A stretch of DNA of 64,000 nucleotides from a virus: the IMG/VR virus record IMGVR_UViG_3300044568_003163, positions 140,879-204,878 of that record. The stretch is one strand, 5' to 3'. The position numbers and the translations under genes were made by a program. Positions within the stretch are counted from its first letter, which is position 1. Each line of letters opens with the position of its first letter. The notes beneath the pieces were generated by a model that searched no databases, was not told where the DNA came from, and worked only from the letters and a program-made list of their open reading frames with translations. Of the stretch, positions 6,314 to 58,543 are shown in pieces.

Positions 6314-6703
6314 TTATTTACATAATTTTAGGCATAACCTAAAGTATTTTTCTCCTGGTCGATCTGAATAAAAGTAAAAATCAACATAATCCCAACTTCG
6401 ATTTTCTAATGCTATTCTAACGCTGGATTCTAGATAGTCGTCATCTACTAAAGTAATTAAAAAATTGTATTCTCTAATAAATATTTGTTTAGATTTTACA
6501 TACATCTTGTAATTACGACTAGGTGTAATAATAGAAATAGTATTTGTATGTTTGTCTTCGTAAAAAACAACTTCACCGTGAACCGGTAAAATATCCCAAC
6601 CTTCAGCGGTTCTTACGTCGATGGATTCAAATTCAAATCTCTTTTCTTGACTAAATGCCAATGAAGAAATTACGAATAAAATTACAAATATTAAGTTTCT
6701 CAT
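6314..6703 (-). CDS. Secreted hypothetical protein
   Basis: 129 residues with a clean signal peptide (MRNLIFVILFVISSLAFSQ, cleavage likely after AFS/Q, a pattern common in Flavobacteria). The mature part is beta-rich and ends CLKLCK. Likely periplasmic; role unknown. One of several exported proteins in this accessory region. Confidence 0.65.
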   Translation of the reverse strand: MRNLIFVILFVISSLAFSQEKRFEFESIDVRTAEGWDILPVHGEVVFYEDKHTNTISIITPSRNYKMYVKSKQIFIREYNFLITLVDDDYLESSVRIALENRSWDYVDFYFYSDRPGEKYFRLCLKLCK

Positions 6704-33758: not shown

Positions 33759-34220
33759 TTATTTTATTAGTAAGTTTTTGAAAAAATCTCGTTCGTCTGC
33801 CTTTACTGCATATAAGTAAAAACTTCTATCATTTCCATTAACATATCTTATTGATTTGATAGATTTCATTTCTAAAACTCCTAATTGAACTGGATTTAAA
33901 GGGAATGTTATATCAGTTATACCATCACACGTTAATTCAATATTCGATCTAATTGTCATATATTTGCCATCGACAAAAGTAAATATTAATGCATCTCTTT
34001 TACTGCATTTTCCAATATTTAATTTTATTGTGATTAAATAATTTTTTTCAGATATTCCATTATATTTTTTAAAATGAGGTATAATGGTAAACCATTTACT
34101 TCTGTCTTCAGTAGAACAGATCAACATAGAATTTTCTTCCTTTTTAGTTGTAGGCTGTTCGTTTTGTGAATTACCAACAAATGTTAGTAATAAAAATAGT
34201 AAGATGCATAATTTTTTCAT
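33759..34220 (-). CDS. Secreted protein inside the tagged cluster
   Basis: 153 residues with a signal peptide (MKKLCILLFLLLTFVGNSQ) rather than a tag. The mature part has three Cys and beta-rich segments (NYLITIKLNIGKCSKRDALIFTFVDGKYMTIRSNIELTCDG). Exported to the periplasm or beyond; no family recognised. Its insertion between tagged genes suggests a later gain. Confidence 0.65.
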   Translation of the reverse strand: MKKLCILLFLLLTFVGNSQNEQPTTKKEENSMLICSTEDRSKWFTIIPHFKKYNGISEKNYLITIKLNIGKCSKRDALIFTFVDGKYMTIRSNIELTCDGITDITFPLNPVQLGVLEMKSIKSIRYVNGNDRSFYLYAVKADERDFFKNLLIK

Positions 34221-48206: not shown

Positions 48207-48859
48207 TACGATTTTACTTCTTCTCTATCTTCTTCTGTAAAACTTAATACTGCATCTAACTCTACTTTTGAAGCATTAACATTCATTTTAGCTGATCTAA
48301 AATTAGTTAATTTGTTTGAGAAGTTCATGTACATTTTACTGTTTGAAGCATCATTTGCGTTATAAGTCATAGCGTTATTAGCAGAAATACCCATATCACC
48401 ACCAGCTTTAATTGCATCTTGATTTGCTGCTAAGAACAAGAAATTCCATCCTTCTTTCTTTTTAGCTTCAATAGACTTGAAAACTCCATCTCTGTTAAAT
48501 TCTCTACTTGCATTTTCCATACCATCTGTAATGATTACCATTACGACATCATTCTTAGTTTTAACTTCTGCAATGGTTCTACCAATTGCATCGTACAATG
48601 CAGTCATTGCTCTAGGAACAAAAGTTTCACCTAAAATCAAGTCTTTTACATGTTTGATGTCTAGATTAGAATAATCTACTTGATATTGGTTGTCAAATTG
48701 TACTAATGTAAGATTTGCTTCACCTTCTGCGGCTCTTTGTTCTTTAATAAATGAATTGAATCCATGTACGGTAGATCGACCTATGCTTTCCATAGATCCA
48801 CTTCTATCTAAAACAACGATAATGTCAGTTGCTTTGATTTTTTGTTTTGTTTTTTTCAT
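48206..48859 (-). CDS. von Willebrand A domain protein
   Basis: 217 residues with an intact metal-dependent adhesion site: VVLDRSGSMES (D-x-S-G-S), Thr in MTALYDAIG, and Asp in ITDGMENAS. Otherwise only the vWA fold. Similar short vWA proteins occur with tellurium-resistance and phage gene sets. It is the second vWA protein of the window besides the Ro60-like one. Confidence 0.82.
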   Translation of the reverse strand: MKKTKQKIKATDIIVVLDRSGSMESIGRSTVHGFNSFIKEQRAAEGEANLTLVQFDNQYQVDYSNLDIKHVKDLILGETFVPRAMTALYDAIGRTIAEVKTKNDVVMVIITDGMENASREFNRDGVFKSIEAKKKEGWNFLFLAANQDAIKAGGDMGISANNAMTYNANDASNSKMYMNFSNKLTNFRSAKMNVNASKVELDAVLSFTEEDREEVKS

Positions 48860-50136
48860 TAGTTATTTAGTTTAGCTTCGATTTTTTCATCAGATTCATA
48901 CCCTATTAAAGAGAATTGTGATGGATCGTATTCTGAAATATCGTCTCTTTCGTCGATATAATGATTATTTTTGTCGAATTGATTAATTTTTAATTTTGGC
49001 AGTGGATGACCATATCTCGTGATTTGTTCAGCCGCAGCTGTTATATGATTATTATACAAATGAGTATCACCTAACATTCCAATCAACTCATCTGGAATCA
49101 TATTTACTTCTTTTGCAATGATTTCTAAAAGAAGTCCATAAGATGCAATATTAAATGGCAAACCTAATAGAGTATCTACTGATCTTTGAGACCACATTAA
49201 CGAAATAGCTCTTTCTGGAACTACTCGAGTCTTAGAAAGTTTCTTTTCGAACTTAGCATAGAATTCCTTTTCTTCAGCTCTTACCTTAGCAGCTTCTTCA
49301 TATCGCAAAGCCTTAACATAAGCACTTTTAATTAGTAAGATTCCTCTGAGTTCTTGTTTTTCTTCAGGTGTACCTAATCGGTCAACTAACTCGGATTCAC
49401 TTAATTTACGAGTATATAATTGAAATCCAATATGACAAGGAGGTAGCACCGCTTTATCAACATCTGCTACATTCCAAGCATTAAGTAAAAGTCTTCTAGA
49501 ATCAGGATTTGTTCGTAAGTCTTTAATCAAATTAGCAATTTGATCGAACGATTCAGGTTTGTAAAATAAACCTTGACGAGCATCTCTATTTTCTTCATCT
49601 AAAGCATCAGAATTAAAAAAGAAATCTTTATCAACACCTTCCCAACTTCTCCATTGCTTACCGTAGATAGGACCTAAATCACCAAACATTGAATTGAAAT
49701 CGTCGTTTGCAAGAATATCTCTTTCGAATTCTTCTACTGTTAATTTAACTATCTTAGGAATTGCAACTACTTCTGCAACTTTTTGTGCATTTTCAGTAGT
49801 AGGATTTGTGTATTTTTCTTGAAGAGATTCGACCCATTTCTCATATTTCTTATAAGCGTCACCGGTCCAAATATGACAATTGTTTTCTAATAAATATCTT
49901 AAATCAGTTCTACCTTGTAAGAACCACATTAGCTCAGTTACCATTGTTTTAAATGCTAACTTTTTAGTAGTTATTGCAGGAAAGCCATCTGTCATATCAT
50001 GTCTAATCATATAACCAAATATGCTTCGAGTTCCTACTCCAGTTCGGTCACCTTTAAAATTACCATGGTGCATGATTGTTTGCAATAAGACCTTGTATTG
50101 ATGGTCTAATTTGTTTGCTGAGTTTCCTATTTCCAT
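48859..50136 (-). CDS. thyA: Thymidylate synthase (ThyA type) with two insertions
   Basis: 425 residues against about 265 in typical ThyA. Core motifs: GDRTGVGTRSIFG (Arg31), FPAITTKKLAFKTMVTELMWFLQG, YGKQWRSWEG, DSRRLLLNAWNVADV, catalytic Cys in LPPCHIGFQLY (Cys234), LMWSQRSVDTLLGLPFNIASYG, LGDTHLYNNH. Insert 1 (about 98-150) and insert 2 (about 243-307) interrupt the core. Insert 2 contains LRYEEAAKVRAEEKEF, resembling a UVR motif. It makes dTMP from dUMP. Large inserts in an essential enzyme core are unusual. Confidence 0.92.
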   Translation of the reverse strand: MEIGNSANKLDHQYKVLLQTIMHHGNFKGDRTGVGTRSIFGYMIRHDMTDGFPAITTKKLAFKTMVTELMWFLQGRTDLRYLLENNCHIWTGDAYKKYEKWVESLQEKYTNPTTENAQKVAEVVAIPKIVKLTVEEFERDILANDDFNSMFGDLGPIYGKQWRSWEGVDKDFFFNSDALDEENRDARQGLFYKPESFDQIANLIKDLRTNPDSRRLLLNAWNVADVDKAVLPPCHIGFQLYTRKLSESELVDRLGTPEEKQELRGILLIKSAYVKALRYEEAAKVRAEEKEFYAKFEKKLSKTRVVPERAISLMWSQRSVDTLLGLPFNIASYGLLLEIIAKEVNMIPDELIGMLGDTHLYNNHITAAAEQITRYGHPLPKLKINQFDKNNHYIDERDDISEYDPSQFSLIGYESDEKIEAKLNN

Positions 50137-50137
50137 T

Positions 50138-50347
50138 TTATATAAATTGCATTTGTACAGTTTTTAATTCAGTTCCTTCAGGAAATACAGAATCTCCTAA
50201 ATACATTTGTATAGTTTCCATTTCTGCTGTAGGTGCAAAAACCATTGGTAGGCTTCCATTCATCCAAATAACCTCATCGGTTATTGGTGAAAGGTCAAAA
50301 TGAACGAAATATTGATGAGTTTCGTTCCATAGTGTTTTAAATATCAT
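50138..50347 (-). CDS. Hypothetical protein, 69 aa
   Basis: Small beta-rich protein (YFVHFDLSPITDEVIWMNGSLPMVFAPTAEMETIQMYLGDSVFPEGTEL). Sits between epimerase (1-base overlap) and thyA. No family recognised. Confidence 0.55.
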   Translation of the reverse strand: MIFKTLWNETHQYFVHFDLSPITDEVIWMNGSLPMVFAPTAEMETIQMYLGDSVFPEGTELKTVQMQFI

Positions 50348-51222
50348 TAGCTACAATTTTTATTAACATATTCAGTTAAGTAGTCCATTAAATCATGTTC
50401 AGCTCGCCAACCTAAAGCTTTTTGAGTTGGTTCCCAATCGCATAAAGTAGATTGACCTTCATTCTTTCTTAATGGAGTATGAATCCATTGACCACCTTCC
50501 ATTGAACAAAGTTTCTTAGCAATATCAATGATTTTAATAGGTTTACCTCTACCTAAATCAAAATTTACACCTAGAGTTGTAACGTTAGATGCAGCAATAA
50601 GTCCTTTACAAATATCTTCAACATGAGTAAAATCTCGAGATTGTTCACCATCACCAACAACCGTAATGTCTTCACCGTTTTTCCATTGTCTAGAAAATTT
50701 AGCAACAACAGTAGCCCATTCACCTTCACGAGGTTCTCTGGGACCATAAACATTATAGAAAGTACACATTGACATGTTTAAACCAAAACATTGTGCATAA
50801 GTTTTAACAATTCCTTCTCCTGCTACTTTTGAGTAAGTGTATGGAGTTAAATAAGGAGTTCCGTGATTTTTAGATGATGTAGTTGCATACACTAAAGTGG
50901 CATTAGTAATTCTTGCAAGTTCACAAACTGCAGCAGTTCCTAGGGTATTAGATTCAAAATAATCAAAAGGCCTTTCAAACGAAGGTTGTATTCGAGCTTC
51001 AGCTGCTAAATGGAATATTTTATCAAATTTCTTATCTCCGTAATGTTTGATTACATTTTGTACATCACCTAAAATATACTCAGCAAATTGATTTTGATAA
51101 TATAGGCTTGCAGATTCAGATGATAAATTATCAATACCATAGACTTCGTGTCCTTGTGAAACCAACATATCTACTAAATTTGAGCCTACAAAACCTAATG
51201 AACCCGTGACTAATATCTTCAT
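50347..51222 (-). CDS. NAD-dependent nucleotide-sugar epimerase/dehydratase
   Basis: 291 residues, extended SDR. TGSLGFVGSNLVDML (T-G-x-x-G-x-x-G), HLAAEARIQPSF, TSSKNHG, catalytic Tyr and Lys in TPYTYSKVAGE, FYNVYGPREPREGEW and the substrate-binding FTHVEDICKGL. It acts on UDP- or dTDP-sugars; with the UDP-sugar dehydrogenase and glycosyltransferases it would supply modified sugars. Confidence 0.88.
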   Translation of the reverse strand: MKILVTGSLGFVGSNLVDMLVSQGHEVYGIDNLSSESASLYYQNQFAEYILGDVQNVIKHYGDKKFDKIFHLAAEARIQPSFERPFDYFESNTLGTAAVCELARITNATLVYATTSSKNHGTPYLTPYTYSKVAGEGIVKTYAQCFGLNMSMCTFYNVYGPREPREGEWATVVAKFSRQWKNGEDITVVGDGEQSRDFTHVEDICKGLIAASNVTTLGVNFDLGRGKPIKIIDIAKKLCSMEGGQWIHTPLRKNEGQSTLCDWEPTQKALGWRAEHDLMDYLTEYVNKNCS

Positions 51223-52403: not shown

Positions 52404-52433
52404 TATTATATGCACTTAGTGTAAATTAGTTTT
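52404..52433 (-). promoter_or_regulatory. ECF-type promoter AAAACTAA-N13-CATATAATA
   Basis: Boxes and 13-base spacing match the other four sites (first G of GAAACT replaced by A), 21 bases upstream of the ATG at 52383. Confidence 0.65.
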
Positions 52434-53149
52434 TATTGAGGTCCTTTATTAAACCATTTTTTTTCAAATACGCTAGTCTGTGCATTTGTTATTTCATATT
52501 GTTGCTCAGGTGTTAAAGTCTTACCGGTTTTGCCTAAATTGCCATCATGATGATTTACCACAGAATCTGCAACTAAGCAATGAGGAATTTTATTTTTCTG
52601 TAATTCCATTGAATAATCATTATCACAGAACCAGAAAGTAAATTGTTCATCTAATTCGCCTAAGATATCGTAGATTTTTCGTTGTTGAAAAATACACCAT
52701 CCTGCTAATTCGCCTCTTACTCGATAACCTTCAAATACATTTCCAGTATTTGTTACATTATCTCCTTGAGTTTGTGGACACCAAGGAGAAGCAGAAAGAA
52801 ATCTAGGATGTACATCCATTACTTCGATTATTTTAGAAGCCCAATTCTTTTCGTAAGTTAAATCGGAGTTACACAAAACTACATAAGGTGAATTACCTGC
52901 TCTTCTGCCGATATTCAAGTATCGATGATATCCAAAAGGAACTTCTGGATGGATTGTTGTACATGAATGCATCCATTTGAATTGGTTATATTCATCGTAA
53001 TTAACATCTTTATTCGATTCAATCACATAAGCATGGAATGCAATATCTCCGCTATCAGATTTGAATAAAGAATCTAAACCGTCTTTGGTTACTTGAAGAA
53101 GAGCATCGTCTTTTGCCCAACTAATTATTATTACGTCTACATGTTTCAT
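52433..53149 (-). CDS. Family-2-type glycosyltransferase
   Basis: 238 residues. VDVIIISWAKDDALLQVTKDGLDSL, YLNIGRRAGNSPYVVLCNSDLTYEKNW (N-x-D in place of DxD) and FTFWFCDNDYSMELQKNKIPHCLVADSVVNHH, the acceptor-side motif of GT2 enzymes ending with the typical H-H. Start of the distal end of the glycan operon (last gene transcribed). Sugar and acceptor unknown. Confidence 0.85.
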   Translation of the reverse strand: MKHVDVIIISWAKDDALLQVTKDGLDSLFKSDSGDIAFHAYVIESNKDVNYDEYNQFKWMHSCTTIHPEVPFGYHRYLNIGRRAGNSPYVVLCNSDLTYEKNWASKIIEVMDVHPRFLSASPWCPQTQGDNVTNTGNVFEGYRVRGELAGWCIFQQRKIYDILGELDEQFTFWFCDNDYSMELQKNKIPHCLVADSVVNHHDGNLGKTGKTLTPEQQYEITNAQTSVFEKKWFNKGPQ

Positions 53150-53159
53150 TATGTTGTAT

Positions 53160-53762
53160 TTATCGAATTAATTCTATTAGTAAAGGTTTACCAATATATG
53201 TAGTAAAATGAATGTTTAGTGGATGTGTATAATGTTTAAGAGCTTTATAAATACCGTGCATACATGAAGGGTATTCAGGTCTAGGCGGTTTTGATTGTAA
53301 ATAGTGACATCCTTGAATCATTGAATCAATATGCTTTTTATTAAGCCATATTGCAAGATCTGAAACAAATTCAACTTCTAGAAAAGGGTCATGTGGCGGG
53401 TACATAAAGTTGATTTTATCAAAGTCAATAACACCAAATTCAGTAACTTTATAAAGAAACTTTGTATCAAATCTAGTGACAAAAATGAAGTCAATATCTT
53501 CGGTTTTCATCATTTCCATACAATGAATAAATGTGGTTATTTGATCTGTTCCTTGGTAAGGTATAATTTCAAGTTTAGTAGGCGAATATGTTTCTACTAA
53601 TTCTCCAATATATGGATTATCATAAGTACAAATATATGTACTCACTTCGTGATTCTCTTTTAGAGGCTCGATTAGATTTTCTTTTATATTATCGGCACAT
53701 TGTCTAAAGTCAGCTTTTCCATGACCATGTGAAATTCCTCTAAATAATATCGCTATTTTCAT
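53160..53762 (-). CDS. Glycosyltransferase-like protein of the glycan operon
   Basis: 200 residues: KIAILFRGISHGHGKADFRQCADNIKENLIEPLK..., STYICTYDNPYIGELVETYSPTKLEIIPY, FIFVTRFDTKFLYKV. This layout (opening strand-G, then a strand ending YSP-x-x-x-x-I, then a-x-R-x-D) is shared with the 54213 gene. It occurs in capsule-type glycan clusters. Overlaps the GDPD-like gene by 23 bases. Enzymatic role inferred. Confidence 0.65.
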   Translation of the reverse strand: MKIAILFRGISHGHGKADFRQCADNIKENLIEPLKENHEVSTYICTYDNPYIGELVETYSPTKLEIIPYQGTDQITTFIHCMEMMKTEDIDFIFVTRFDTKFLYKVTEFGVIDFDKINFMYPPHDPFLEVEFVSDLAIWLNKKHIDSMIQGCHYLQSKPPRPEYPSCMHGIYKALKHYTHPLNIHFTTYIGKPLLIELIR

Positions 53763-54213
53763 CTCTATATTTTTTTATATGATCGCTACAGATACCTGAA
53801 CAAAGAGAAACATCATCGTTATTAATTTCTGGCATAACTGCAATTGAATTTTTGATTGGTTGATTGCCTGGATAAACCCAAACATGTTTATGGGAAGTAA
53901 GAGTCATCTGATCTTCTTGATGCCAAAAGAAATTAAATTCATATCCGGACTCAGAAAAAATTTCGACCGCTTCTATATTTTTGCAATGAATCCATAGTCT
54001 AGTCAATCGATCGCTAAACCATCTAAAATCCACTCTATATTGAGGTTTATCATGTCCTAGAAAAAGCTGCCACCCATATTGTTCAGTTTTGATATACCAA
54101 ACATCAACCTCAACCTCAAAACCTTCATTAATAGCTTTATCGATATAATTTGGTTCATTTTCATAAGACTCAAATTTACCGTTGGTATTTCCTCGGTGTG
54201 CAATATACTTCAT
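53740..54213 (-). CDS. Glycerophosphodiester-phosphodiesterase-like protein
   Basis: 157 residues. YIAHRGNTNG...ENEPNYIDKAINEGFEVEVDVWYIK matches the GDPD opening (H-R-G, then E-x-D on the second strand). QLFLGHDKPQYRVD corresponds to the second catalytic His (GHD). Short versus full GDPDs (about 240). Family members are seen in capsule and sugar-phosphate clusters. Hydrolysis of a phosphodiester in the glycan pathway is inferred. Confidence 0.75.
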   Translation of the reverse strand: MKYIAHRGNTNGKFESYENEPNYIDKAINEGFEVEVDVWYIKTEQYGWQLFLGHDKPQYRVDFRWFSDRLTRLWIHCKNIEAVEIFSESGYEFNFFWHQEDQMTLTSHKHVWVYPGNQPIKNSIAVMPEINNDDVSLCSGICSDHIKKYRDENSDII

Positions 54214-54866
54214 TAATATCTAACTTCGTTTTTAAGGACAAAGCTCAAATCTGGTACGGCAACAAATTGAATACCTTGTTTAGCTAAGTAATTTTGAAAT
54301 ACATTTTCTGCGTTAACACATTTATTGATGGTTTCTTCAGTATAAAAAGATTCGTCAGGTATACTTTCAATCATCGTTTCTCGGTCGCCGTAAAAAAATA
54401 TGTCACTAGTAAAACCATTCATCGAAGAATATCTTCCATATATTTTTCCAGGTTCTACTTCAAGGTTTATATTATATAAATGAGACAAATCAAATCTGCT
54501 TCTTACTATAATGTCGTATGTTGAGTCAACCATTGCAAAAGTTTTCTTAATCTTCTTCCACATAAGTAGAGTATTTAATACGTTTACTCGAGTATCTGAT
54601 GGAAATTGATAGTCAAAATGAAAGAGATCCGAGTAGTCTGAGCGTTTTTCTATTTCTAATTTAATCGGAGAATAATTTCGAACTAAAGCTTCTATGTCAA
54701 TTGGATTTTCAATTTCAATTCCACCTTGCCAAAATAATTGACCAGTTGCTTGATATTCCCATGTAGAAATAAAGAAATCTACACCAAGATTTTTAAAGTA
54801 CGCAGAAGGCATAGGTAAATTATATTCTAAGCCTCTAGTATGTCCAGATAAACAATATGCAATCAT
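54213..54866 (-). CDS. Glycosyltransferase-like protein of the glycan operon
   Basis: 217 residues: IAYCLSGHTRGLEYNLPMPSAYFKNLGVDFFISTWEY, then RNYSPIKLEIEKRSDYSD, YDIIVRSRFDLSHLYNI, and KIYGRYSSMNGFTSDIFFYGDRETM. The R-x-R-x-D motif and layout parallel the 53160 protein, so the two are probably related transferases. Substrate unknown. Confidence 0.65.
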   Translation of the reverse strand: MIAYCLSGHTRGLEYNLPMPSAYFKNLGVDFFISTWEYQATGQLFWQGGIEIENPIDIEALVRNYSPIKLEIEKRSDYSDLFHFDYQFPSDTRVNVLNTLLMWKKIKKTFAMVDSTYDIIVRSRFDLSHLYNINLEVEPGKIYGRYSSMNGFTSDIFFYGDRETMIESIPDESFYTEETINKCVNAENVFQNYLAKQGIQFVAVPDLSFVLKNEVRY

Positions 54867-54874
54867 AGGAAATA

Positions 54875-55519
54875 TTATTTTTGTATACGATATGCAATTG
54901 CTACACCATAATCGTCTTGACCTTCAAAGTGCTTTTCAACTCTAAAAATACTATTATCTATAGCTTCTACAAATACGGTAGGACCTGGATGATAATTAGA
55001 ATCATGGAATATTACAATACCGTTATCAGAAAGCATATCGACATATTGCCAATCATTTATTACTGCGTTTAAAGAATGCCATCCATCGATAAATAAAATC
55101 GAGATTTTTTCTAATCCTATTTTCTTTGCATAACTTTTTACATTAGATCGATTAAATGAGTTTTCCCTTATTGTGAAGATATTCTTTTCAGCATTATCGA
55201 GATATGTTTTATCGTCTAAATCTACACCTAAGTATTTAATATGATCTGGCTTAGATTGAAATATTGCTTGAGTAAAAGAACCCATTTCATTACGAGAAAT
55301 ACCAATCTCTAAAATACCATGAGTCATGTAATTTTTAGTGATTGATTCAACTAATTTATAATTCTGAGATGAAACTTCAGCTGAACAGGTTTTCGTAAAA
55401 GAACTCCAATCTTCGTTATTATCATATCCGGTCATTTGAGGGAGAAAGGAAAGACCGAATATGTCAGTTTTATCTTCTCTAACTTCAACCGGATGACCAT
55501 TTATTATTAAGTTTTTCAT
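54875..55519 (-). CDS. Class I SAM-dependent methyltransferase (Methyltransf_24-like)
   Basis: 214 residues. ILEIGISRNEMGSFTQAI (motif I region), LGVDLDDKTY, ISILFIDGWHSLNAVINDWQYVDMLSDNGIVIFHDSNYHPG: the W-H-S/Y-x-x-x-x-D-x-x and H-D pattern of this methyltransferase group, common in sugar and capsule biosynthesis. Probably methylates a sugar in the same pathway. Confidence 0.82.
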   Translation of the reverse strand: MKNLIINGHPVEVREDKTDIFGLSFLPQMTGYDNNEDWSSFTKTCSAEVSSQNYKLVESITKNYMTHGILEIGISRNEMGSFTQAIFQSKPDHIKYLGVDLDDKTYLDNAEKNIFTIRENSFNRSNVKSYAKKIGLEKISILFIDGWHSLNAVINDWQYVDMLSDNGIVIFHDSNYHPGPTVFVEAIDNSIFRVEKHFEGQDDYGVAIAYRIQK

Positions 55520-55528
55520 ATATTTGTT

Positions 55529-56716
55529 TTATCGTTTACCCCATTTTTGAATAGCTTGATCGTATTCTGGTCCAAATTCGCTATCAATACTTTGTCTCAT
55601 AGCTTTTGCTCCAGCAATAGTTCCACCCGGATGTCCATGTATAGCACCACCTACATTTGCCATATAATCAATACCTACTTTAGAGGTTACCCATTCGGTT
55701 AGTCCTGGTTGAAAACCACAACTTAATGCAGGCATAACATTGTGATCGTTTAGTATTTTAACTGCATCCAATGTTTCTTGCTCATCCCATTTATAATAAC
55801 CGCCAATCATACCTGCATGAATGAAATCTACTCCCATCATACCGGCTAATTTACAAATTACTTTCCAATCAATGTGGAAATCGTGATTTTTATTAGTAAG
55901 AATTTTATCACCAGATTTTTGGAAGTGGATGAACATTGGTAGATCTAATTCTCGAATTGCACGATAAACGCCTAAACCACACCAAAAATTAACATGTACT
56001 GAATTTCCACCTAATTCGTAGATTCGTTTAACTCGATCAATGATGTAAGGATAATCTGCGTGTATAGAAACCGAATAGATTACATTTTTATCTTTAAGAT
56101 AGTCCATAATCAAAGGTACTCTTTCTTCGATAGTACAGAAAGATGGATCGCTAAGGATTTCGTCTTCTTTGATAAAATTAACACCGCCTTCAACTAATTC
56201 TTTTACCATTTCGAGTAAAGTTTGAGCTGATATTCCAGTTTTCGGTTTAACAATTGCACCAAATATAGGTTTATCATAAACTCCAGTAAATTTACGAATA
56301 CCATCAATACCAAACTTAGGACCTAAGAAAATATCTTCTATATGTTTAGGAAATTCAATATTAAGAACTTGACATTTTAATACATTATCGATATCTAATT
56401 GACCACCCATAATATTAACTAAAAGATGAGAAATACCATCAGTTTTAAAGTTAATGTTGATTACTGGAAATCCAATCTTCACAAGACCTTCGTTAGATTG
56501 TAAATCTTCTTCATTTGCAATAACCATACATGAATGATTTTCGAAAAGTTCGTTAGTTTCCCATTGATTTCGAACATTTGGATTTCCTACGCTTTGACCT
56601 ATTGCGAGATTCCAAGAGGCATCTCTTAGAGTTGTTTGAGATTTCAAAAAGTAAGTTACAATAACGTAATCTTCCTTATTAACTTCAGGTCTAAATATGT
56701 TTACTTCGTTTTCCAT
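55529..56716 (-). CDS. RuBisCO-like protein (form IV-type large-chain homologue)
   Basis: 395 residues with the RuBisCO large-chain barrel. GAIVKPKTGISAQ (Lys157/159, equivalent to Lys175/177), GGVNFIKEDEILSD (Lys183-x-Asp185-Glu186, the carbamate Lys and metal ligands), MFIHFQKSGD (His264), FIHAGMIGG (His300), LSCGFQPG (Ser332) and NVGGAIHGHPGGTIAGAKAMR. The loop-6 Lys334 of true RuBisCO is replaced (G-M-I-G-G-Y) and the Asn123 region reads NIMGGQLD, so carboxylation is unlikely. An enolase- or isomerase-type reaction on a sugar-phosphate-like substrate is the expected class for such proteins. It sits between a methyltransferase and a cupin in a glycan operon. Confidence 0.88.
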   Translation of the reverse strand: MENEVNIFRPEVNKEDYVIVTYFLKSQTTLRDASWNLAIGQSVGNPNVRNQWETNELFENHSCMVIANEEDLQSNEGLVKIGFPVININFKTDGISHLLVNIMGGQLDIDNVLKCQVLNIEFPKHIEDIFLGPKFGIDGIRKFTGVYDKPIFGAIVKPKTGISAQTLLEMVKELVEGGVNFIKEDEILSDPSFCTIEERVPLIMDYLKDKNVIYSVSIHADYPYIIDRVKRIYELGGNSVHVNFWCGLGVYRAIRELDLPMFIHFQKSGDKILTNKNHDFHIDWKVICKLAGMMGVDFIHAGMIGGYYKWDEQETLDAVKILNDHNVMPALSCGFQPGLTEWVTSKVGIDYMANVGGAIHGHPGGTIAGAKAMRQSIDSEFGPEYDQAIQKWGKR

Positions 56717-56738: not shown

Positions 56739-56767
56739 GTTATATGACGTATTTGTCGTTAGTTTTC
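56739..56767 (-). promoter_or_regulatory. Possible ECF-type promoter of the RuBisCO-like gene
   Basis: AAAACTA, 13 bases, CATATAACA: same geometry as the five strong sites, with the -10 box ending ACA. About 23 bases upstream of the ATG at 56716. Confidence 0.4.
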
Positions 56768-57060
56768 GAAGGAGTTTTTACTATTACCAACGAACAATCT
56801 TCTAAAAACTCAGGATCTGCGATTTCATATGGGTAGATAATAAATATATCACCGGAAACAAGCTTTTTATCTTGAATTATCATGGTGCCTTCGATTAGAT
56901 AGTTAATTTCTGTAGCTTCTTTATGGTAATGAGTTTCCCATTTTTCACCTTTAACATGCTTTTTATAACAAACTTCGAAATCTCCAGTCTTATATGCAGT
57001 AGGTTCAAAGTTACCAACAAACCATCCAGCTTTCATATCTTCAATCCTAAACAGTTCCAT
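56740..57060 (-). CDS. Cupin-domain protein
   Basis: 106 residues, one small cupin barrel: GEKWETHYHKEATEINYLIEGTMIIQDKKLVSGDIFIIYPYEIADPEFLEDCSLVIVKTPS. H-x-H-x-E-x-x-E and late acidic/Tyr positions give a metal site. Overlaps the nucleotidyltransferase start by 14 bases. Could be a sugar isomerase or a binding protein in the glycan pathway. Confidence 0.8.
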   Translation of the reverse strand: MELFRIEDMKAGWFVGNFEPTAYKTGDFEVCYKKHVKGEKWETHYHKEATEINYLIEGTMIIQDKKLVSGDIFIIYPYEIADPEFLEDCSLVIVKTPSKTNDKYVI

Positions 57061-57733
57061 ATAAATTGAGATATTTATTTAAGTCTTCGGGAGTACCAAT
57101 TGGATGATGTTGATTAAATATGTAGATTCCAACTTGCATATTTTTCTCTAATATGTAGTTATATGAAGGAGCTACATAAAATTCTCCGTTTGTTCGATCA
57201 TTTCTTTTTTGCATTTCTTCGACAGAATCAAAAAAGTATTTTGCCTTTTTCCAATAGTGAAGTCCATTTGTTGCTATATTAGAAATAACTTGCTTTTCTT
57301 TTACTTCGGTTACTAGATTTTCTTCGTTTACCTTAACATATGAATTTTTGTTATGAGTTGAAATAAAACAACCTAAAAGAGCATCATATTTTCTTGCATG
57401 AGACAAAAATAACTCTCGATTCCAATCTTGTATTACTTGATCGCAATTAGTTATTATCAATTCATCTTCCATATCTATGAAATCTTTAACTAGATATGCA
57501 GTAGAAGCAGGACCTTCGGTTATGTAATCTATATCGAATATCTTAACATCATCGTGAGTAAAATTATGAGACTTTTGTTTGATAATTAATATTTGATCGT
57601 CTTTATGATTGAAATTATCGATGACATGCTCAATCATCGGTTTTCCTTTCCATGAGATAATTGGTTTAGGTTCATTATACTCAGATTCGTTGAATCGTGA
57701 ACCTCTACCTGCTGCAGGAATAATTATTTGCAT
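57047..57733 (-). CDS. Sugar-phosphate nucleotidyltransferase
   Basis: 228 residues. IIPAAGRGSRFNESEYNEPKPIISWKGKPMIEHVIDNF is the G-x-G-x-R-x(n)-P-K-P signature; ELIITNCDQVIQDW carries the metal-binding Asp, and NGEFYVAPSYNYIL follows. It activates a sugar phosphate (or similar alcohol phosphate) with an NTP and so starts the local glycan pathway. Confidence 0.88.
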   Translation of the reverse strand: MQIIIPAAGRGSRFNESEYNEPKPIISWKGKPMIEHVIDNFNHKDDQILIIKQKSHNFTHDDVKIFDIDYITEGPASTAYLVKDFIDMEDELIITNCDQVIQDWNRELFLSHARKYDALLGCFISTHNKNSYVKVNEENLVTEVKEKQVISNIATNGLHYWKKAKYFFDSVEEMQKRNDRTNGEFYVAPSYNYILEKNMQVGIYIFNQHHPIGTPEDLNKYLNLYGTV

Positions 57734-57742
57734 TGAATTTTT

Positions 57743-58543
57743 TTATTTTTTTGGTTGAAAGATTTCCACTACCGCATGTGGCCAATTATAGTACGATATA
57801 CTTGCTTCTCTAGGATATTTTTTCATAACTTCTTCTGGATATTTAAGAGTATCGAAGAAAATATCTTCTTTCTCGATTACTAATACGTAATCGACTGGCT
57901 GCCATCCTGATTCTATTCGAGTTTTAGCTCGTTTTAATGCCTGTTCTTTTGTTCGGTATGTTATGTGCTTATGGCAAAAATTTACACTAATACTATTCAT
58001 TGCTTGTGGTGGAATTGTTAAACTATGTCCATTTCCATATACAAATTCTGGCTTCATTCTAAAATATCTATGCTCAGGAAATCCAGGCATCATACAATAT
58101 TCTAGCATAGGCTCAATCAAACCACCATTATTAGTAGTATTAGTCCAAGTTTCTCGTTGTGAAATGTGTGGAAAAAAATGAAGATTTCTAATCGTAACCG
58201 AATCAACATCAAAGTGATCGATACTTTCTAACATAGATAATGGATTACTTTCAGGGAATTCATCAGGATGAAGTACGGCTACCCATTTTTTATTAGGTGA
58301 TATTTCTTTTGCTTTCTCTAAAAGAAATCCTCTAATTGAATCGTTTGATATTCCATGTACTACGTTTTCGTCTCTTTCATAATATTTTACTTCTGGAAAT
58401 CTAGAACATATTTCTCTACCAATCTCATCATCACTACCATCTAATACTAATATTGGATCGAAATATTTAGAGACTACATTTAAGTATTCTTCGAGAATAT
58501 CATTCTCGTCTCTCATTATTAAAATTCCTACTTGTTTATCCAT
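57743..58543 (-). CDS. Glycosyltransferase family 2-like protein
   Basis: 266 residues: VGILIMRDENDILEEYLNVVSKYFDPILVLDGSDDEI, WVAVLHPDEFPES (acidic metal site), RNLHFFPHISQRETW, HKHITYRTKEQALKRAKTRI. Typical of GT2-like proteins with a D-E-F metal motif. Overlaps the upstream gene by one base. Confidence 0.78.
   Translation of the reverse strand: MDKQVGILIMRDENDILEEYLNVVSKYFDPILVLDGSDDEIGREICSRFPEVKYYERDENVVHGISNDSIRGFLLEKAKEISPNKKWVAVLHPDEFPESNPLSMLESIDHFDVDSVTIRNLHFFPHISQRETWTNTTNNGGLIEPMLEYCMMPGFPEHRYFRMKPEFVYGNGHSLTIPPQAMNSISVNFCHKHITYRTKEQALKRAKTRIESGWQPVDYVLVIEKEDIFFDTLKYPEEVMKKYPREASISYYNWPHAVVEIFQPKK

Follow-up and report, generated by a model that had tools for sequence, protein, structure and literature searches.

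Among the systems closest to the locus described here are several of the RuBisCO superfamily. MtnW (IV-YkrW; structures 2oem, 2oek and 2zvi) is a 2,3-diketo-5-methylthiopentyl-1-phosphate enolase, and the RuBisCO-like protein (RLP) of R. rubrum is a ketose-phosphate isomerase that shifts the carbonyl along a ketose phosphate (PMC4958253). OiaX-type and 3nwr-type RLPs and the archaeal form III RuBisCOs are further relatives. Surveys of viruses count rbcL among the genes for carbon fixation (PMC8506154, PMC12607003); in a landfill survey, a viral rbcL sequence clustered with ‘RbcL-like’ proteins and rbcL also occurred in random IMG/VR viruses (PMC12607003). The 2007 GOS paper reports 65 ocean RuBisCO homologues outside the known forms (PMC1821046), so some of the clade described below may already have been seen without a viral label. 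The landfill ‘RbcL-like’ genes and the unassigned GOS homologues may include members of this clade; the accessible parts of these reports propose no cassette or glycan role for them (PMC12607003, PMC1821046). In a literature search mostly excluding subscription papers, no paper was found that connects a viral RLP with glycan synthesis. To our knowledge, no other link between the RuBisCO fold and nucleotide-sugar synthesis has been described.

Gene, fold and genomic setting of the phage RLP

The window, the whole 64-kb stretch of DNA that was analysed, has a GC content of 32% and is part of a 294-kb record of a T4-like phage with a T4-type Gp23 capsid gene aboard. It encodes the following RLP:

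55529..56716, minus strand: RLP, 395 amino acids, third core gene of the cassette (PF00016, E 1.9e-33; AF2 pLDDT 91.4; Z 43.9 to 2oem; active-site residues tabulated below)

These boundaries coincide exactly with those at which an earlier note had read a RuBisCO-type gene. The protein matches the Pfam family RuBisCO_large with 116.4 bits against a cut-off of 30.1. The AF2 model, computed from a 26-sequence alignment (pTM 0.89), displays a complete RuBisCO fold, including the N-terminal domain, and aligns with solved RuBisCOs and RLPs at Z 38-44 across ~370-380 residues. Together, the Pfam score and these structural matches indicate that the RuBisCO likeness is not due to chance. The nearest solved structure, at an rmsd of 2.2 across 370 residues, is the MtnW enolase 2oem, which carries Mg2+ and a substrate analogue, and form III RuBisCO stands level with it (Z ~41-44). 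Form III also gives the top family score. PF00016 is matched by all 26 sampled clade members, and PF02788, which describes the N-terminal domain, by 8 of the 26. The window RLP is a member of the RuBisCO superfamily with the large-chain fold.

A metal site kept and carboxylase residues lost

Active-site residues were tabulated in spinach numbering for 67 full-length homologues. Two sites stand out in the window:

56159..56170, minus strand: KEDE codons (K183-E-D-E186), putative carbamate-Lys and metal site, equivalent to K201, D203 and E204; invariant in 67/67

55796..55798, minus strand: Y307 codon, at the position of loop-6 Lys334; Tyr in 67/67 full-length homologues

K175, K177, K201, D203, E204, H327, S379, G381 and G403 are constant in all 67 full-length members, while six positions are substituted in every one of them (N123→G, D198→N, H294→Q, R295→K, K334→Y and G380→C). 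In the aligned rows, E60, T65 and W66 are replaced by G, N and P, and the replacing residues, G40, N45 and P46, are invariant in the 26-sequence alignment. The clade has also acquired new invariant residues (N45, P46, R49, E53 and Y307). Much of what the earlier note had read is borne out: its KPK motif is K157 and K159, its K-x-D-E motif is KEDE (K183, D185, E186), its Tyr in place of the loop-6 Lys is Y307, and its altered Asn123 region is a GGQ motif. The phosphate-site Gly pairs that it described as kept are kept in part, as G381 and G403 stay and G380 is replaced by Cys and G404 by Ala in the window, the latter also in 57/67 full-length members. Its residue list omitted the clade-wide changes at E60, T65, W66, D198, H294 and R295.

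In RuBisCO, E60 and K334 cooperate over the substrate, and T65, W66 and K334 grip phosphate 1. The joint loss of E60, T65, W66 and K334 argues against carboxylation, and a core suited to Mg2+-dependent enolisation remains. The residues of a functional RuBisCO are not retained, with K334→Y, H294→Q and N123→G in 67/67 and E60→G in addition. By its residues, the RLP can be assigned to form IV in the broad sense, that is, to RuBisCO homologues without key carboxylase residues, as the earlier note had proposed, and it is probably an active, non-carboxylating member of the superfamily.

The same positions separate the phage RLPs from their relatives. MtnW shares with them the fold, the metal triad and the absence of the loop-6 Lys, but lacks K177 and H327; the retention of K177 by the phage RLPs is unusual, as this residue is lost from MtnW, OiaX and 3nwr. 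OiaX and 3nwr-type RLPs share the metal triad, with identity up to ~29%, but keep H294, R295 and K334, which the phage clade does not. Compared with archaeal form III RuBisCO, many active-site or lid positions are changed in the phage protein, from which carboxylase activity is not expected.

Automatic annotation would label this gene rbcL via PF00016, rbcL is named a carbon-fixation auxiliary metabolic gene in viral surveys (PMC12607003, PMC8506154), and one soil-virus rbcL is reported to be active (PMC12615777), so that not all viral rbcL genes are of the present kind. A genuine CO2-fixing RuBisCO carried as an auxiliary metabolic gene nevertheless has next to no chance of being the right reading, given the three substitutions present in all full-length members, the loss of E60, T65 and W66, and scores far below each RuBisCO model cut-off (183.6 bits to the form III family TIGR03326, cut-off 497.45; 160.7 bits to PRK04208, cut-off 438). 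Nor did the recurring neighbours that were examined include a small subunit or a phosphoribulokinase. For the clade as a whole, CO2 fixation is very unlikely.

Phylogeny and selection

The phage RLPs and a single cellular sequence form one clade with 100/100 support on a stem of 1.99 changes per site, which stands apart from forms I, II and III, MtnW and the OiaX/3nwr group. MtnW and the phage RLPs are separate clades at 100/100. The separation survives removal of long-branch rows, with the warning that the long branches of the phage RLPs and MtnW come together in that tree. The tree left out IV-GOS, IV-AMC, IV-DeepYkr and the R. rubrum isomerase, and IV-Photo is represented by a partial R. 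palustris RLP2 chain only, on a long branch; IV-GOS could include the phage clade. In the phylogenetic check suggested by the earlier note, the RLP joins none of the sampled clades whose substrate is known. Membership of MtnW/IV-YkrW was rejected, with scores of 157.1 and 131.4 bits under cut-offs of 409 and 513.6 and a separate clade, as was OiaX/3nwr-type membership, with 141.6 bits against a cut-off of 700 and again a separate clade.

OiaX-type RLPs decarboxylate, so isomerisation is not the sole option for the phage protein. An OiaX-like enzyme would perform C-C chemistry, with (de/trans)carboxylation of a 3-keto sugar-acid phosphate yielding a sugar phosphate, either short or branched, that the neighbouring nucleotidyltransferase could use. 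OiaX-type RLPs are the commonest named plasmid relatives and have an identical metal site, and the window RLP does score against their model. This reading is rather unlikely, because that score lies far under the cut-off, the phage RLPs fall outside the OiaX/3nwr clade and the three residues kept by OiaX are gone from them.

Between close pairs of phage RLP genes, dN/dS is 0.02-0.08, and the clade is under strong purifying selection. The recent, decayed acquisition that the earlier note had named as a refuting outcome did not appear: a captured host gene in decay was rejected by clade depth and dN/dS. For a non-catalytic structural protein or a decayed copy, no supporting point was found, and the invariant metal site and low dN/dS speak against it, leaving it scarcely credible.

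Distribution in viruses and cells

At least 230 IMG/VR stretches encode the clade in an alignment-based scan, and a single-sequence scan gives 70 IMG/VR loci at 45-80% identity. No match was present among 50,697 phage records, no RuBisCO homologue turned up in PHROGs, and the BFVD viral structures gave no RuBisCO-fold match. That a phage form appears unusual, as the earlier note had it, holds for deposited phage genomes but not for uncultured tailed phages, many of which carry the gene. Misassigned host DNA was rejected as an explanation for the window: the T4-type Gp23 capsid gene is present in its record and also in 12 of 42 other RLP records.

Among ~85,000 bacterial and archaeal species genomes, scanned by patterns (NFIKEDEI is invariant across the sampled clade), one cellular locus was detected, at L072:7272-9188. 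This locus, L072, is a contig of a Patescibacteria metagenome-assembled genome, rich in glycosyltransferases, with GDPD-like, cupin and RLP genes in order and the nucleotidyltransferase on the opposite strand. We initially expected a phage fragment in a Patescibacteria bin, an explanation that was dropped because the genes look cellular. REP-type transposase-like genes occur in the same locus, and its RLP is nested inside the phage clade. The 286 Patescibacteria genomes searched contain no other carrier of the clade; their matches, at 25-32% identity, are ordinary RuBisCO relatives by tree.

The RLP cassette and its neighbours

The RLP is part of a portable phage cassette with the order nucleotidyltransferase (NT), cupin, RLP and GDPD-like protein. 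In the window, its other genes and neighbours are:

57743..58543, minus strand: GT2-family glycosyltransferase-like protein, flanking (PF13704, E 1.1e-05, slightly under cut-off)

57047..57733, minus strand: stand-alone sugar-phosphate NT, first core gene (PF00483, E 5.1e-10; phrog_3980, E 3.5e-52; 102/109 loci)

56740..57060, minus strand: one-domain cupin, 106 amino acids, second core gene (phrog_24762, E 7.5e-37; 95/109 loci)

54875..55519, minus strand: SAM methyltransferase, optional neighbour (PF13578, E 6.3e-06; family in only 19/72 loci)

54213..54866, minus strand: accessory protein, 217 amino acids, possible glycosyltransferase (phrog_13607 of unknown function, E 8.6e-12; related copies in 33 loci)

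53740..54213, minus strand: short GDPD-like protein, 157 amino acids, fourth core gene (phrog_34507, E 2.3e-30; 89/109 loci)

52433..53149, minus strand: GT2-like glycosyltransferase, flanking (PF00535, E 2.3e-04, slightly under cut-off)

50347..51222, minus strand: NAD-dependent sugar epimerase/dehydratase, accessory (family F4, in 34/72 loci; one member PF01370, E 8.4e-37)

The NT and cupin genes share 14 bases and 23 bases separate the cupin and RLP genes, a spacing suggestive of a minus-strand run that is transcribed together. The NT counts refer to unfused NTs within 5 genes of the RLP in unique loci, the cupin and GDPD-like counts to unique loci with these genes near it, and the exact order NT-cupin-RLP-GDPD is found in 59 of the 109. 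Neighbour clustering yields NT, cupin and GDPD-like as the only widely common families; the epimerase family and a glycan-cluster family of 217-280 amino acids reach about half of the loci, and most flanking genes are unshared. Of the neighbours named in the earlier note, the NT and cupin are linked to the RLP in glycan gene clusters over the 109 loci, and the methyltransferase was rejected as a core partner; the GDPD-like gene, the actual fourth partner, had gone unnamed there. Among the core members of the cassette, no sugar kinase was recognised.

The cupin retains invariant H44, H46 and E51, and its profile matches solved cupins at E ~1e-5, the best being other small cupins, quercetinase domains and one chain named mannose-6-phosphate isomerase. 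At L050:2017-3477, one protein combines a cupin and a methyltransferase-like region (weak matches to PF13489 and PF08484), consistent with an activated-sugar substrate. In the GDPD-like protein, the HRG, ExD and GHD motifs are kept, the profile matches GDPD 7e0v at E 0.001, and the AF2 model (pLDDT 95.4) gives weak Foldseek matches to GDPDs; Pfam returned no GDPD match even across 23 members of the family, and the assignment is weak.

Partner swapping in RLP-less cassettes

The GDPD-like and cupin genes are found also without an RLP. An HAD-NT fusion is present in 63 of 89 RLP-less GDPD loci, and the NT of RLP-less cupin loci usually carries a fused HAD, mini-HAD or RpiB domain. The nearest NT is unfused in 93/97 RLP loci versus 4/28 RLP-less cupin loci (Fisher p 1e-17, with related loci counted as independent). 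By NCBIfam models, the HAD fusion domain is closest to the beta-phosphoglucomutase family, below cut-off, and the C-terminal domain of the cyanophage NT is RpiB/LacA/LacB, above cut-off. Read most simply, RLP, HAD and RpiB would be alternatives for one front-end step, in which a phospho-sugar is readied for the NT.

Of 63 RLP-linked NTs, 50 contain a KNSY/KNSF-type motif, against 0/18 HAD-fused and 0/7 bacterial NTs, a difference suggesting that the RLP alters which compound is activated by the NT and that the cassette product differs. The RLP-linked NTs do not form one clade in the NT tree, which requires 9 changes versus 36 when shuffled, so the NT-RLP link is strong without being exclusive.

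Glycan clusters of the cyanophages Bellamy, SynMITS9220M01 and S-CAM9 resemble the phage RLP cassette in their GDPD-like and NT genes and, in two of them, a cupin, but have no RLP, and their NT is fused to an RpiB domain or HAD. Synechococcus phage Bellamy gene 206 (L074:5835-6992), annotated ‘phosphatase’, is an NT fused to an RpiB-type isomerase domain; gene 212 (L074:11359-11667), annotated ‘phosphoheptose isomerase’, looks like a mini-HAD with a DIDET motif, and mini-HADs resembling it are NT-fused in RLP-less cassettes. LPS/O-antigen loci on plasmids of Ruegeria, Roseinatronobacter, Scandinavium and P. aeruginosa combine WavE-type LPS genes with adjacent genes for GDPD-like, HAD, NT and cupin proteins, but have no RLP; these loci tie the cassette to surface polysaccharide synthesis.

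The surroundings of the phage RLP differ from the methionine salvage context of MtnW. The R. rubrum 5-methylthioribulose-1-phosphate isomerase likewise has a cupin partner, and isomerisation of a keto-sugar phosphate is proposed as the common chemistry; the other partners differ, being NT and GDPD-like in phage. A methylthio-sugar salvage, in which RLP and cupin would act as the R. rubrum MTRu-1P isomerase and MTXu-5P methylsulfurylase and feed isoprenoid or sulfur salvage, could draw on the RLP-cupin pair established in that organism (PMC4958253) and on a weak IspD-like match of the NT. Its chance is slim, as the RLP is regularly accompanied by a sugar NT and a GDPD-like protein within glycosyltransferase clusters, the RLP-less LPS loci contain the same cupin family, and HAD or RpiB domains take the place of the RLP in RLP-less versions.

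Proposed function

We propose, with a probability of roughly 0.58, that the RLP is an Mg2+- and carbamate-dependent isomerase or enolase of the NT-cupin-RLP-GDPD-like cassette, making the phospho-sugar that the NT activates for a surface glycan. Mg2+ would be bound at carbamylated K183 with D185 and E186, and a proton adjacent to the carbonyl of a keto-sugar phosphate would be removed. The carbonyl would then be shifted via an enediolate, an enolisation or isomerisation comparable to that of the R. rubrum RLP on a 1-phospho-ketose. The stand-alone NT would couple the phosphate of the product to an NTP, and the cupin, possibly of isomerase/epimerase type, and the GDPD-like protein may modify the activated unit or hand it on, for a glycan of the virion or of the host surface.

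Isomerisation is favoured because the R. rubrum RLP moves the carbonyl along a ketose phosphate. The three sugar-activation genes beside the RLP indicate that it probably helps to build an unusual virus- or host-surface sugar, and the glycosyltransferase-rich setting of the cellular RLP counts for the glycan reading. Against the proposal, the phosphate-1 grip (T65, W66, K334) has been lost and the expected phosphate may therefore be missing from the substrate, and as the core has no sugar kinase, the substrate would need to be supplied by the host. The loss of these contacts and the new invariant N45, P46, R49, E53 and Y307 would also suit an RLP that works once activation has taken place, or whose sugar is non-phosphorylated or nucleotide-linked, by epimerase-like proton transfer. 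Such a role is quite unlikely, since the phosphate-2 side is mostly kept (H327, S379, G381; R295→K) and the replacement partners HAD and RpiB come from sugar-phosphate enzyme families.

A wider claim is tentative, with somewhat less than an even chance: the phage-dominated RuBisCO clade would be a sugar-phosphate isomerase of nucleotide-sugar biosynthesis, the first RuBisCO-fold enzyme in glycan building, interchangeable with HAD and RpiB enzymes, and its sugar would be one rarely or never made by cells. If true, it would constitute a new, mostly viral branch of the superfamily that ties the fold to nucleotide-sugar synthesis, and at least some viral ‘rbcL’ counted as carbon-fixation genes in metagenome surveys would likely be glycan genes. 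The compact cassette and the HAD/RpiB swap variants in cultured cyanophages and bacterial plasmids make the substrate question directly testable.

Other features of the window

Signal peptides with ..SQ endings are encoded at 1-1005, 6314-6703 and 33759-34220, a style frequent in Bacteroidota that hints at a possible flavobacterial host. The thymidylate synthase at 48859-50136 has 425 amino acids versus a family model of 335 positions, with an apparent insert. Between 24251 and 40635 on the minus strand, proteins of very different length share one type of N-terminal peptide (MKNIPTFEDFVNES-like, at least 10 clear matches), similar to a T4-type capsid-targeting peptide; this set suggests many packaged internal proteins.
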